From NCBI GenBank assembly GCA_026128865.1, contig JAHCJE010000013.1, positions 1-39,433 on the forward strand: a DNA stretch of 39,433 bases, in the 5' to 3' direction. Positions 1,664-6,771 of the stretch are shown here, one piece after another (within the stretch, counting starts at the first letter, position 1; the number at the start of each line of letters is the position of its first letter). The notes below the pieces were generated by a model that made no database searches, was not told where the DNA came from, and saw only the letters and a list, made by a program, of their open reading frames with translations. The position numbers and the translations under genes were made by a program. The DNA is from Phycisphaeraceae bacterium (GTDB lineage Bacteria; Planctomycetota; Phycisphaerae; Phycisphaerales; UBA1924).

Positions 1664-4600
1664 TCAGGGAAGCCGCTGGAGGCGGGCGTATTCGAGAATG
1701 AGCGTCTTGTCGCCGACCTGGCCGAATCGGACGCGGACACGGATGCTCGTCCCGCCGTCGAGGCCGAGGACGGTGCCGACGCCGAACTGGGGGTGTCGCA
1801 CGCGGCATCCGGGGGGGAAGGCCTCCTTCGCCTGCCCGAGCCTGCCTCGGGAGGTCGATGCTGTTGAGGCGGGATGGTGGGTCCGAGGGTCGTGATCGAG
1901 GTTGTCGTCGTGCTCGTGGGCTTCGGCGAGTTCGACGATCCGGACGTGGGCGGTGTCGATCTCGTCGAGGAAGCGGCTGGGGATGGTGCGTTCGGTTCGG
2001 CCGCGGAGGGTTCGGGTGCGTGCGCTGGTGATCTGGAGACGCCGCATGGCCCGGGTCATGCCGACGAAGAAGAGGCGGCGTTCCTCCTCGAGGTCGGACT
2101 CGGACTCCCAGGCGCGAGCGTGCGGCAGGCAGCCCTCTTCGAGGCCGATGATGGCGATGGCGGGGTATTCGAGTCCTTTGGCCGCGTGGAGTGTCATGAG
2201 CGTGACCGCGCCCTGTGCCGGGTCGACGGCGTCGGCGTCCGCGACGAGGGAGACCCGCTCGAGGTAGGCCCGGAGCAGGGCCAGCAGCGGGGGAGCCGAG
2301 GCCTTCTCGCCGTCGGTGGCGGCCCGCGGGCCGGGGAAGGTCGTCGGGTCGGCTTCGGGGTCGTAATCGGCCTCGAAGTCAGCGGCGGAGGATACGACCT
2401 CGGCGAGATTGTCGAGGCGCTCGCGGTCGGTTTCGGTGCCGCTGTCGGCCTGTTTGACGTACATCGCTTCGAGTCCGGACTCCTTGATGACACGCTCGAC
2501 GAGTTCGCTGAGCGAGCCGGCGACGCTCTGGCCGAGGAAGGTGCCGCCGCCGGTCCAGCCGTCGAGGGTGGCAACGAATCTGCGGAGGGCAGCGTTCGCT
2601 CGCGTCGAGAGGCCGGGGATCGAGTCCGCGCGGCGCATGGCGTCGATGAGGGGCGTGCCGGCGCGGGCGGCCTGGGCCTCGACCGCGGCCAGCGTCGCGC
2701 CGCCGATACCGCGTGTCGGCACGTTCACGATGCGACTGAGCGAAACGTCGTCGGCCGGGTTCGCGACGACGCGCAGGTAGGCGAGCGAGTGCTTGACCTC
2801 CTCGCGCTGGTAGAACGCCGTGCCGCGGGCGACGACGTAGGGAGCGGCGGCGGCGCGGAGCGTGTCCTCGAGCACGCGGGAGAGGGCGTTTGTGCGGTAG
2901 AGCACGGCCATGTCGCGCCAGGCGAGGCCCTCCTCTCGAAGCCGACGGAACCAGTCCACGACGAGGTTGGCCTCGTCGTGTTCGTCCTCGCAGAAGGCGA
3001 CGGTGACCGGCTCGCCGCCCGGCCTGGAGGTGAAGAGGTCCTTGGGCTTGCGCATGCGGTTGCGTCGGATGACGGAATCCGCGGCGCCGAGGATTGGCGC
3101 GGTGGAGCGGAAGTTCTCGCCCAGCATGATGACGGCGGCGTCGGGGTAGTGCTCCTCGAACTCGAGGATGTTGGTGATGTCCGCGCCCCGCCACGAGTAG
3201 ATCGAGTTGTGAACGACGATCCCGCCCGCGACGTAGTTTCTCGCGTGCGGTACGGAAAGATCGAACACCGGGCCGTCGTACTCTTCCCGTTCGACTGAGG
3301 CAACGATGTCCTCGACGATCTCGCCGTTCCGATGCACGGGCACGACCATGCCGGGATGGACGTGGCTGGCGGGCATGAAATGGAACGCCTTGTCCGGCGT
3401 GAGCCTCGCCCGCGAGACGACTTCGATGTCCGAGGCGAGGGCGCGAATCTCGTCGGCGAGCCGGAAGGCCGCGTCGTAGTCCTTGCGCGACGTCTCGATC
3501 CGCCACGTGCCGCGTGTGCCGTCCCGGACTGGGAACGATGGCGCCGCGACCTTGCGCAGGTGTTCGTCGGACGACACGATCTGGACGCGGTGCTCGTGCC
3601 AGGGGCGGATCGACTTCGGGCGGGGATCGCCGAAGACCGTGACCAGGACGTGTTTGCGCGACCAGGGTTGGCCGTTCGTTCCTCCGTGACGGGTCACCGC
3701 GCCCGGGCGATGATGCGGGAAGCGCGCGTCGAGGGCGAGGTCGTGCATCAGCCGGAGCGCGTTTGCCTCTGTGTCCAGAGTTGAGTAGAGCCGATCGACG
3801 TGCTCCTGCGTGAGGTCCATGCGGCGTCCCCGCACGAAGAAGACGGTGGTCGGGATGCCGTACTTCACGGAGTAGTACTGCTCGTAGTACTTCGACTCAG
3901 CGGAAGTTCGGGCCGAGTGCAGCACCCACATCGCGTCGGCGACTTCCTGGTTCGCTCGGACTTGGAGGCCGGAGAGGATCTCCCGGTCCTTGCTGGCGCG
4001 CACGCCCCGCGTTGTGCCGATGCGGTACCCGACGCCGCGTTTCCACATGAGGTAGGTGTAGTGCAGGTTCGAGTCGGCGCGGAGTCTCGCGAACATCACG
4101 TGGTTCGGCGTAGCGCGGACGGCATGTCCGCCCTCGGTCGTGATGCGAACGAGCGTGCCCCGGTAACGCCGGGACATCACCCGATCGACCGGCATGGCCG
4201 ACCTTCGGCCCCAACCCGTGGCGGCCTCAACGTCGCTCCCTTCGGCGATGGTCTCGATGGCTCGCGATCCGTTCGGAGTCAGGATCGGCGTTCCGGGCGG
4301 CAGGCATTGATCTGGATCTCCCACGACGCAGACGTTCGGTCGAGCGACGCCGTCGCTCCCACCCGCGAGCAGCGAGGCGATCACGAACTGCGCGTGGTTC
4401 GTGTCCTGGTATTCGTCGATGAGCAGGTACTGCCAGCGGGCGCGGCAGTCTTCGCGGACGGCCTTCGAGCGGGTGAGCATGATCGCGGTGAGGAGCAGCA
4501 GGTCGTCGAAATCGACGGCGTTCGCAGCCCTGAGCGCCTTCTCGTAGGCCTTGTAGACCTTCGCGGTAGTCTTCGCGGCGAAGTCGCCCGCTTCGGCGGC

Positions 4601-5161
4601 AAAGGCGTCCGCGGTCTGGAGGCGGTTCTTGGCCCGGCCGATCGCGGCCAGCATCGCGGCCGGAGACCAGTTCGTGGTCGAGAGGTTGATCGACGCGATG
4701 ACCTTCTTCATCAGCGCGTTCTGGTCGGCGGCGTCGTAGATGGTGAAATCGTGGCCGATGCCGAGATCGACGCCCTCGGTCCGTGCCGTCTCGGCGTAAC
4801 GGCGCAGCAGGCGGGCGCAGAGGGCGTGGAAGGTCGTGACCGTCAGGCCGCGGACGCGCCGGGCGGCGGGGCCTTCGGTGTCGCCCGTGGGGTTGAGCAT
4901 GGCGAGGACGCGCTCTCGCATTTCGCCCGCGGCCCGGTTGGTGAAGGTCAGGGCGAGGATCGACCACGCCGGCACGCCGCACCCGACCAGATAGGCGATC
5001 CGGCGCGTGATCACCCGTGTCTTGCCCGACCCGGCCGCCGCGAGCACGAGGAGCGGCCCCTCGGTGGTCGTGACGGCTCGGCACTGCGGCTCGGTGAGGT
5101 CGTTCAGGAGGTGGTCGAGTTCGGGGGCTTCAGCGTGTCGGCCCGCATCCGTTCGGGTCAT
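1664..5161 (-). CDS. pcrA: PcrA/UvrD-type superfamily 1 DNA helicase with an intein
   Basis: This is a 3'-5' DNA helicase for repair, replication restart and transcription-coupled repair. The precursor has 1165 residues; removing the intein (residues 286-652) leaves about 798, near the usual PcrA/UvrD length. Visible motifs are Walker A AAAGSGKT (41-48), LTFTNRAAGEM, Walker B IDEYQDT (DEYQ 249-252), motif III VVGDPDQ/SIYSWRGAD split by the intein, GENFRST, VTLMTLHAAKGLEYPAI and FVGMTRAMRRL. The last 50 or so residues (FPPGCRVRHPQFGVGTV) match the Tudor-like C-terminal domain of PcrA that contacts RNA polymerase, which favours PcrA over Rep. Start: ATG preceded by AAGGAG with a 5-nt spacer. 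truD follows 9 bp downstream. Confidence 0.96.
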   Translation of the reverse strand: MTRTDAGRHAEAPELDHLLNDLTEPQCRAVTTTEGPLLVLAAAGSGKTRVITRRIAYLVGCGVPAWSILALTFTNRAAGEMRERVLAMLNPTGDTEGPAARRVRGLTVTTFHALCARLLRRYAETARTEGVDLGIGHDFTIYDAADQNALMKKVIASINLSTTNWSPAAMLAAIGRAKNRLQTADAFAAEAGDFAAKTTAKVYKAYEKALRAANAVDFDDLLLLTAIMLTRSKAVREDCRARWQYLLIDEYQDTNHAQFVIASLLAGGSDGVARPNVCVVGDPDQCLPPGTPILTPNGSRAIETIAEGSDVEAATGWGRRSAMPVDRVMSRRYRGTLVRITTEGGHAVRATPNHVMFARLRADSNLHYTYLMWKRGVGYRIGTTRGVRASKDREILSGLQVRANQEVADAMWVLHSARTSAESKYYEQYYSVKYGIPTTVFFVRGRRMDLTQEHVDRLYSTLDTEANALRLMHDLALDARFPHHRPGAVTRHGGTNGQPWSRKHVLVTVFGDPRPKSIRPWHEHRVQIVSSDEHLRKVAAPSFPVRDGTRGTWRIETSRKDYDAAFRLADEIRALASDIEVVSRARLTPDKAFHFMPASHVHPGMVVPVHRNGEIVEDIVASVEREEYDGPVFDLSVPHARNYVAGGIVVHNSIYSWRGADITNILEFEEHYPDAAVIMLGENFRSTAPILGAADSVIRRNRMRKPKDLFTSRPGGEPVTVAFCEDEHDEANLVVDWFRRLREEGLAWRDMAVLYRTNALSRVLEDTLRAAAAPYVVARGTAFYQREEVKHSLAYLRVVANPADDVSLSRIVNVPTRGIGGATLAAVEAQAARAGTPLIDAMRRADSIPGLSTRANAALRRFVATLDGWTGGGTFLGQSVAGSLSELVERVIKESGLEAMYVKQADSGTETDRERLDNLAEVVSSAADFEADYDPEADPTTFPGPRAATDGEKASAPPLLALLRAYLERVSLVADADAVDPAQGAVTLMTLHAAKGLEYPAIAIIGLEEGCLPHARAWESESDLEEERRLFFVGMTRAMRRLQITSARTRTLRGRTERTIPSRFLDEIDTAHVRIVELAEAHEHDDNLDHDPRTHHPASTASTSRGRLGQAKEAFPPGCRVRHPQFGVGTVLGLDGGTSIRVRVRFGQVGDKTLILEYARLQRLP
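3206..4306 (-). mobile_element. In-frame intein inserted in helicase motif III
   Basis: A 367-residue insert occupies precursor residues 286-652. It starts with Cys (CLPPGTPILT, the usual splice block A form), has a second splicing block near its end (DGPVFDLSVPHARNYVAGG) and ends in VVHN. The next extein residue is Ser. Cys1, penultimate His, terminal Asn and a Ser/Cys/Thr at +1 are the residues needed for canonical protein splicing. Joining the flanks restores an uninterrupted GDPDQSIYSW motif. The middle (about 200 residues, with GIPTTVFF and LMHDLALDARFPHH) is longer than in mini-inteins and resembles the homing-endonuclease part of other UvrD-family inteins. Its endonuclease class and activity are not clear by eye. 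Confidence 0.95.
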
Positions 5162-5391: not shown

Positions 5392-6771
5392 ATGAGCCAG
5401 GCGCACCGCGAACCAGACCTGACCGAGAGCAGGACCGCAGGGCGGCCGGGTGACACCAAGCCTGTCGCACCCCCTGCGGACAGCCTCACTTCATCGCACG
5501 ACACCGATACCCCCCAGGACCTCGCCAAGGGAGGCACGAACGTTGACACGCTCGTCGGCCGGCTGGTGGTCGAACAGGGCTTGGCGACCTCGGAAGAAGT
5601 GCAGGCGTGCCTCGAGTTGTCGCGGCGTGCGCGAGAGGTCGAAGCCAACCAGCGCTCACTCGTCGAACTGCTCGTGGACAATGAGTATGTCACCCGACGG
5701 CAAGTGGCGCGGCTCCGCCAGATCATCGAAGCCGAGCGATCGGGGCAGCAGATCCCCGGCTACAAACTGCTCGGAAAGCTCGGCGCTGGAGCGATGGCGA
5801 CGGTCTACAAGGCCAAGCAACTGAGCCTCGACCGCATGGTCGCGATCAAGGTGCTGCCGCGGAAGTACTCGGCGAACCCGCAGTTCATCGAGCGGTTCTA
5901 CGCCGAGGGGCGTGCCGCGGCCCAGTTGAACCACCCGAACATCGTGCAGGCATTCGACGTCGGCAAGGCGGGCGAGCACCACTACTTCGTGATGGAGTAC
6001 GTGGACGGGCGGACGGTCTTTGACGACATTGCCAAGCACAGGCGCTTCAGCGAAGCGGAGGCGCTCGACGTCGTGATTCAGGTCGCCGAGGCGCTGGAGC
6101 ACGCGCACTCGAAGGGCCTGGTTCACCGCGACGTGAAGCCCAAGAACGTGATGCTGACGAAGGAGGGCGTCGCGAAACTGGCGGATATGGGCCTCGCCCG
6201 GGCGATCACGGACAAAGAGGCCGCGGAGGCCGAGGCTGGCAAGGCGTTTGGTACGCCGTACTACATCTCGCCGGAGCAGATTCGTGGGGAGAAGAACATC
6301 GGCCCACCGGCGGACATCTACTCGCTGGGGGCGACGCTCTATCACATGGTGACGGGGTCGGTGCCGTTCGATGGCAAGAATCCGTCTGCGGTGATGCACA
6401 AGCACCTGAAAGCGGACCTCGTGCCCCCGGACCACGTCAACCCGAAGCTCGGCGCTGGGATCAGCGAGGTCATCGAGATGATGATGGCCAAGGATCCGCG
6501 GCGTCGGTACCAGAACTGCACGGACCTCCTGATCGACCTACGGGCGATCCGCAAGGGGGAGACCCCTCCGATCGCTCACAAGGATGTGTTGCCGGCGGAC
6601 ACCGTGGCGAGTCTGGCAGCGGCTGAGGCAGCGGCCCCGGCGGAGATCGCAGTGGACACGACGGTTTCGGGGGCGGGGTCGGTCTTCAAGGAGCCGCTGT
6701 TCATCGTCATGTGCGTGATCGCGGTGATCAGCATCACGTTCAACGTGGTCCTGCTGGCTCTTCGCGGATGA
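5392..6771 (+). CDS. Membrane-anchored Ser/Thr protein kinase (Hanks type)
   Basis: This is a 459-residue kinase. Residues about 50-115 form a helical, non-catalytic N-terminal region (VDTLVGRLVVEQGLATSEEV...) resembling N-terminal domains of secretion ATPases. The kinase domain spans about 123-390: glycine loop GKLGAGAMATVYKAK (128-142), ATP-binding Lys153 in AIKVL, and catalytic loop HRDVKPKN with Asp247. The activation segment has DMG (265-267) in place of the usual DFG, and an APE-like SPEQ follows. The C-terminal 24 residues are one transmembrane helix, so the catalytic domain should face the cytoplasm, with no large extracellular sensor. Substrates cannot be predicted. Single kinases of this build are common in planctomycetes. 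Confidence 0.92.
   Translation: MSQAHREPDLTESRTAGRPGDTKPVAPPADSLTSSHDTDTPQDLAKGGTNVDTLVGRLVVEQGLATSEEVQACLELSRRAREVEANQRSLVELLVDNEYVTRRQVARLRQIIEAERSGQQIPGYKLLGKLGAGAMATVYKAKQLSLDRMVAIKVLPRKYSANPQFIERFYAEGRAAAQLNHPNIVQAFDVGKAGEHHYFVMEYVDGRTVFDDIAKHRRFSEAEALDVVIQVAEALEHAHSKGLVHRDVKPKNVMLTKEGVAKLADMGLARAITDKEAAEAEAGKAFGTPYYISPEQIRGEKNIGPPADIYSLGATLYHMVTGSVPFDGKNPSAVMHKHLKADLVPPDHVNPKLGAGISEVIEMMMAKDPRRRYQNCTDLLIDLRAIRKGETPPIAHKDVLPADTVASLAAAEAAAPAEIAVDTTVSGAGSVFKEPLFIVMCVIAVISITFNVVLLALRG

Follow-up and report, generated by a model that had tools for sequence, protein, structure and literature searches.

The chromosomal DNA-repair helicase gene pcrA of this uncultured planctomycete is interrupted in helicase motif III by what we take to be a class-1, cis-splicing and probably still mobile intein, with a homing endonuclease of the GIY-YIG superfamily lodged between Hint blocks B and N4 (probability roughly three in four). 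The new part looks to be the middle, where models place a GIY-YIG-like nuclease at an unexpected position in the Hint fold, a combination that appears undescribed in the searchable literature. The Hint domain (intein residues 1–77 and 308–367) would excise the inserted element by the class-1 pathway, joining DQ to SIYSW in a helicase of 798 residues. The central insert (∼78–307) would comprise the endonuclease and, in this branch of the family, a second, probably DNA-binding domain. The endonuclease would cut intein-free pcrA at or near the (S/C)-x-Y-x-W codons, and repair from an intein-bearing copy would then insert the element, that is, homing.

The precursor gene and its intein

In the window (the whole stretch of 39,433 nucleotides analysed here), an open reading frame at 1664–5161 on the minus strand encodes 1165 residues. 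Residues 286–652 form an intein of 367 residues, with base-exact coordinates, that starts CLPPGTPILT and ends GGIVVHN; VVGDPDQ precedes it and SIYSWRGAD follows. The features, with intein residues counted from the first cysteine, are as follows.

1664–5161, minus strand: pcrA/uvrD-type helicase gene; 1165-residue precursor, predicted 798-residue mature helicase after splicing
4307–5161, minus strand: N-extein, residues 1–285, ending VVGDPDQ; PF00580 at 23–286
3206–4306, minus strand: intein of 367 residues in helicase motif III, running CLPPGT...VVHN; matched by intein profiles and by Hint structures
4076–4306, minus strand: Hint N-part, intein residues 1–77, blocks A, N2 and B, with C1 and TPNH at 66–69; TIGR01445 over 1–72, hedgehog and mini-intein matches at Z ∼20
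3851–4069, minus strand: GIY-YIG-like core, intein residues 80–152; model, structure alignments and invariant residues
3707–3850, minus strand: two-helix extension, intein residues 153–200; predicted structure
3389–3670, minus strand: second inserted domain, intein residues 213–306, in the helicase (long) branch only; probable DNA-binding part
3206–3385, minus strand: Hint C-part, intein residues 308–367, blocks N4, F and G, with H366-N367; intein profiles
3314–3337, minus strand: short loop VHRNGEIV, intein residues 324–331, at the standard C35 site and lacking an endonuclease; alignment to the C35 loop of PMC6801210
1664–3205, minus strand: C-extein, starting SIYSWRGAD and including the stop codon; PF13361
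3191–3205, minus strand: codons 1–5 of the C-extein, S-I-Y-S-W, which presumably belong to the homing target; C-F/L-Y-G-W at related sites of unrelated genes

Both nucleophiles of a class-1 intein are present, C1 in the intein and S+1 in the C-extein, as are the TxxH of block B (TPNH) and the terminal His-Asn of block G. PF14890 (Intein_splicing) matches above its cut-off with an E value of 7e-15, TIGR01445 (N-terminal splicing region) scores 41 bits against a cut-off of 24.5, and TIGR01443 (C-terminal splicing region, intein residues 346–367) scores 23.5 bits against 15.6. In an AlphaFold2 model of the whole intein (pLDDT 89.5) the splicing parts adopt the Hint fold. A structure search with this model returned a match list filled by Hint proteins, and the splicing parts match hedgehog proteins and mini-inteins at Z 15–22 (VIA); those at Z ∼20 reach ∼1.6–2.2 Å over 132–138 residues. 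The rest of the protein is PcrA/UvrD, for which TIGR01073 is the top equivalog (E 1e-208) but falls under its trusted cut-off, and the insert splits this match in two.

A preliminary description, made from the letters alone, had proposed a full-length intein at 3206–4306 in motif III of a planctomycete PcrA-type helicase. This proposal holds in each part: the three intein profiles exceed their cut-offs and the ends model as a Hint fold, the flanks match UvrD/PcrA helicase domains, and the genome lies in the same phylum as a Planctomycetia MAG. The profile search that it recommended for residues 286–652 matched the intein models and gave no LAGLIDADG or HNH match.

The window genome has no second copy. 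Base composition is uninformative, with GC 0.67 and GC3 0.85 in the intein versus 0.69 and 0.89 in the exteins. By eye, a Ser/Thr protein kinase-like open reading frame at 5392–6771 on the plus strand adjoins pcrA in divergent orientation.

The central module and its position in the Hint fold

The preliminary description had also judged the middle large enough for a homing endonuclease. The size bears this out; by Pfam the domain is neither LAGLIDADG nor HNH, and we find instead a GIY-YIG-like domain at a non-standard Hint site. In Pfam, no member of the intein family matched LAGLIDADG, HNH or another nuclease family, and the core matched no family at all.

Modelled alone, residues 78–200 reach a pLDDT of 94.3, with a core in the order strand-strand-helix-strand-helix(-helix): strands at 82–89 and 93–100, a helix at 113–120, a strand at 125–132 and a helix at 135–149. 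Foldseek of the core model against the PDB gave no significant E value. When 995 Foldseek candidate PDB chains were re-aligned to the core model, the best five were all GIY-YIG proteins: UPF0213 1zg2 (Z 4.9, rmsd 3.5, 77 aligned), Slx1 6sei (Z 4.3, rmsd 3.2, 79 aligned), UvrC 1yd4 (Z 3.5, rmsd 3.8, 68 aligned), and UvrC 1yd2 and 1yd3 (both Z 3.3, rmsd 3.6, 63 aligned). Unrelated chains begin at Z 2.8. Scores of 3.3–4.9 are weak and a common arrangement could yield them; the case for homology is that one small superfamily fills every top place. The end points of the 1yd4 alignment put model positions 1–78 on chain residues 12–89, and with this offset held constant Y85 falls on Y19, R95 on Y29 and E142 on residue 76. 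Y19 and Y29 are named in PDB titles as mutated residues of UvrC, and Glu76 of UvrC is the metal ligand. In a library of viral structures, the three matches with E < 0.001 were a helicase, an adenine methyltransferase and an unnamed protein, all assumed to belong to the same family; among the lower, weak rows (E 0.009–0.2) were many GIY-YIG, SegE-like, T5orf172, MUG113 and group I intron endonucleases. In the models the topology of the middle looks GIY-YIG-like.

The alignment of relatives shows a conserved order, Y-L-M, about seven residues on [FYW]-R-[VIL]-G, followed in turn by R, E, W and E. All 43 relatives compared (43/43) are invariant at Y85, M87, R95, G97, R117, W127 and E142, just as they are at C1, H69 and N367. 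By topology and spacing, Y85, R117 and E142 would be the counterparts of the GIY tyrosine, the central arginine and the C-terminal glutamate. The YIG tyrosine is replaced (Arg95-x-Gly97); MUG113 carries Lys-Ile-Gly at this position, so that the tyrosine is not universal in the superfamily. T5orf172 is a GIY-YIG subfamily in which, according to PMC10448857, the glutamate was needed for activity in one tested case. Profile alignment (hhalign) with MUG113 members gathered from the phylum laid VYLM...RIG on VYII...KIG at P 0.005–0.012 and ∼3% probability, which is suggestive at most. Since the YIG tyrosine is absent and no sequence-profile match to a GIY-YIG family is significant, we file the domain as GIY-YIG-like, not as a member. 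For residues 80–152, dN/dS was 0–0.09 in 12 pairs (rough values, several pairs being saturated or very close), indicating strong constraint on the core, and in most pairs it did not exceed that of the Hint parts.

The best-surviving alternative is that the middle, GIY-YIG-like in fold, no longer cuts DNA and instead stabilises the Hint fold or binds DNA. The weak structural scores and the arginine in place of the YIG tyrosine would fit, as would a relative that lacks the module and keeps an open reading frame. We nevertheless regard this as unlikely: the five putative catalytic positions, Y85, R95, G97, R117 and E142, are as invariant in the 43 diverged relatives as the splicing residues themselves, and in most pairs dN/dS is no higher in the core than in the Hint parts. 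The relative in question, L129 (G1175:C363), has a mini-intein of 194 residues at the same pcrA codon. Its Hint parts are 48–52% identical to those of the window intein, ∼55 unrelated residues stand between blocks B and N4 in place of the central module, and the helicase reading frame and the Hint parts are open. This natural form argues that the insert is a separable module. The second domain, residues 213–306, is modelled as strands and two helices and is confined to the long branch of the family; by analogy with modular GIY-YIG endonucleases, as described in PMC3943268 and PMC10448857, it probably binds DNA.

All intein endonuclease domains have been placed at the conserved C35 site, with steric limits given as the reason (PMC6801210, 2019). 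Here the insertion point is the junction of blocks B and N4, and the C35 loop is short. When the family profile was aligned to PabCDC21-1 (6rpp), the end of block B (profile position 76) fell on residue 101 and the first position after the insert (219) on residue 111. The whole insert thus corresponds to 9 residues of PabCDC21-1, and the C35 loop follows ∼20 residues further on. The endonuclease site of PabCDC21-1 is at I121, L124 and V126 (PMC6801210); these align to VHRNGEIV (324–331) if three extra N-terminal residues are allowed in the chain, a number we deduce from its length and letters. The mini-inteins PhoRadA and TvoVMA agree on the insertion point (99 to 106 and 99 to 105, respectively).

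A conventional full-length intein, its middle a LAGLIDADG or HNH endonuclease at the usual site that has decayed or diverged, is far less probable, even though these are the commonest intein endonucleases and a LAGLIDADG intein of similar length occurs in a ribonucleotide reductase gene of the same phylum (L009). No LAGLIDADG or HNH match appeared at E values up to 10 in 27 family members, whereas the L009 control matched LAGLIDADG at 1e-19, and on this basis we rejected the assignment. Moreover, the predicted core is a single beta-beta-alpha-beta-alpha unit, and the position differs: by eye, the L009 endonuclease comes after the N4-like PACELTRDDILVL, whereas the N4-like FMPASHVHPGMVVPV here is downstream of the insert. 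Full-length inteins such as PI-SceI, PI-PkoII and that of L009 likewise have a presumed homing endonuclease that splits the Hint domain, but it is of another nuclease fold and sits at C35. Ribonucleotide reductase genes of two genomes in this phylum (L009 and L011) carry full-length inteins of ∼364 residues at one site, with the LAGLIDADG match in L009.

Empty alleles, sporadic distribution and relatives in phages

Residues 1–505 of the joined exteins served as the query in a search of 61 relatives. Two congeneric genomes (L092 and L093) have an uninterrupted pcrA, 89% identical in protein sequence over ∼798 residues and with GDPDQ|SIYSW intact. The preliminary description had predicted exactly this reading upon removal of the intein, and the intein-free relatives that it suggested looking for therefore exist. 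Across the order, 2/251 sampled genomes carry the intein. These are the window genome and G332, which share the insertion codon; within the genus of G332 (g245), several genomes gave an uninterrupted match. Further full-length copies (E < 1e-100) were found in 4/379 genomes in the phylum of the Myxococcota MAG L003 and 5/398 genomes in the class of the Planctomycetia MAG L002, with an identical insertion codon wherever the flanks were read. Between lineages, the inteins are 51–60% identical and the helicases 43–54%; the sole close-host pair, L003/L004, shows the opposite trend (hosts 72%, inteins 61%). Empty alleles, sporadic spread and inteins more alike than their hosts point to horizontal movement, as opposed to vertical inheritance of a regulatory device, and these comparisons make the element look like a homing intein that is sporadic and moves horizontally.

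No co-conversion tract was visible in third-position identity around the junction in three comparisons. Identity was low just 5′ of the junction and high just 3′, and because all three comparisons show this same pattern we claim no tract. In L005 versus L013 (both from one genome) and L056 versus L060, synonymous divergence varies in mosaic fashion along the intein, with dS of 0.04 in the Hint N-part and 0.36–0.62 in the GIY-YIG core, which suggests recombination or gene conversion within the intein.

The preliminary description had further raised the idea that splicing acts as a switch. Helicase motif III is needed for ATP-driven unwinding, so the precursor would be expected to be inactive, and certain inteins show redox or stress sensitivity under laboratory conditions; a domesticated intein whose conditional splicing regulates the helicase could build on both. 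We consider this very improbable, and the idea finds no backing here: both congeners and almost the entire order lack the insert, inteins of the same type sit in phage helicases and methyltransferases, and we saw no independent sign of regulation or conditional splicing. An assembly or binning artefact is scarcely credible, even for a draft genome (89% complete, 4% contamination, 250 contigs), given a single reading frame uninterrupted by stops, 89% extein identity to congeners, and inteins 53–61% identical in independent genomes, which share the codon in those cases whose flanks were read.

The same intein family occurs in the UvrD genes of phi92-like phages and SPO1. Prophages and viral contigs carry it in genes for adenine-specific DNA methyltransferases. 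Direct searches of viral contigs with P0002 or four PcrA inteins gave no match, and an alignment of 14 sequences was too divergent to serve as a query; a profile of the methyltransferase inteins detected 44 loci in viral contigs. The phage UvrD inteins (phi92-like/Justusliebigvirus coliphages, SPO1 gp34.33 and CampHawk) occupy the same motif III site, DQ|S/C-I/M-Y or FQ|C-I-Y, and have the same Hint domain and GIY-YIG-like core, with the second domain also present in the coliphage forms. They differ from the window intein in being phage-borne and only 23–27% identical to it, and the SPO1 form is short (275 residues). They are already labelled inteins in GenBank, and the CampHawk intein is mentioned in PMC3868849; neither the GenBank record notes nor that paper names the type of endonuclease.

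A tree of 39 sequences separates a long branch (PcrA and coliphage UvrD) from a short branch (methyltransferase and SPO1 UvrD) with 100/100 support; the tree is unrooted and contains long branches. Both unrelated hosts have Y-x-W, mostly Y-G-W, at positions +3 to +5: PcrA reads DQ|SIYGWRG and the methyltransferase EW|CFYGWRE. Y-x-W has a frequency of ∼8e-4 in translated open reading frames, a value inflated because the set includes these proteins. The motif common to the two hosts suggests a shared nuclease target.

Several further loci were seen along the way. By eye, one helicase open reading frame of Klebsiella phage KP13-16 (L018, 240–3836) holds two inteins. One, of the Ala1 type, has a LAGLIDADG-like motif and interrupts the P-loop (GTGK|AQPL...VTHN|TST); the other is the GIY-YIG-like one in motif III. 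A 485-kb phage (L019, 2001–3194) has a related intein at a shifted helicase site, after DEAQDLNK (motif II), and in a Stanieria cyanobacterial plasmid helicase (L114) one follows GDP, which places it two codons upstream of where the family usually inserts. Four records of ∼146 kb labelled as Campylobacter phages (MG065639, MG065645, MG065656 and MG065689) carry an intein close to that of the phi92-like coliphages; these records are possibly mislabelled.

Relation to known elements and significance

GIY-YIG nucleases were reported in 2006 not to be found in inteins (PMC1564403). A related case is the fractured AceL NrdHF gene (PMC7891396), where a free GIY-YIG gene separates the two halves of a split intein; that nuclease has its own gene, whereas here it would be part of the intein protein. 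Relative to the GIY-YIG superfamily (UvrC N-domain, Slx1, I-TevI, T5orf172, MUG113), the module agrees in the predicted order of fold elements and in its Y / x-x-G / R / E pattern and finds there its best structure neighbours, but it has no significant sequence-profile match, carries Arg for the YIG tyrosine and is embedded in an intein. We found no intein with an internal GIY-YIG domain in the open-access literature (subscription papers lay outside this search, and an earlier report may exist), nor one among the inteins described in the available parts of PMC7765530, PMC5874633, PMC10448857, PMC3943268, PMC12363816, PMC5871332, PMC2988022 and PMC3868849.

With somewhat less assurance than the main reading, we favour the view that these elements form a separate mobile intein lineage, in which a GIY-YIG-type endonuclease, acquired independently of the LAGLIDADG and HNH inteins, entered between blocks B and N4, and that this lineage spread through bacterial PcrA, phage UvrD and prophage DNA methyltransferase genes, apparently by attacking sites with (S/C)-x-Y-(G/x)-W as the first C-extein codons.

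If our reading is correct, the intein would be an exception both to the rule that GIY-YIG nucleases occur in introns but not inteins (PMC1564403, 2006) and to the C35-only rule for endonuclease position (PMC6801210, 2019). It would offer a second, independent Hint-nuclease fusion in which to study the entry of endonucleases into inteins, and engineered inteins would gain a new insertion point. It would also connect phage helicases with chromosomal ones by a route along which such elements would move.
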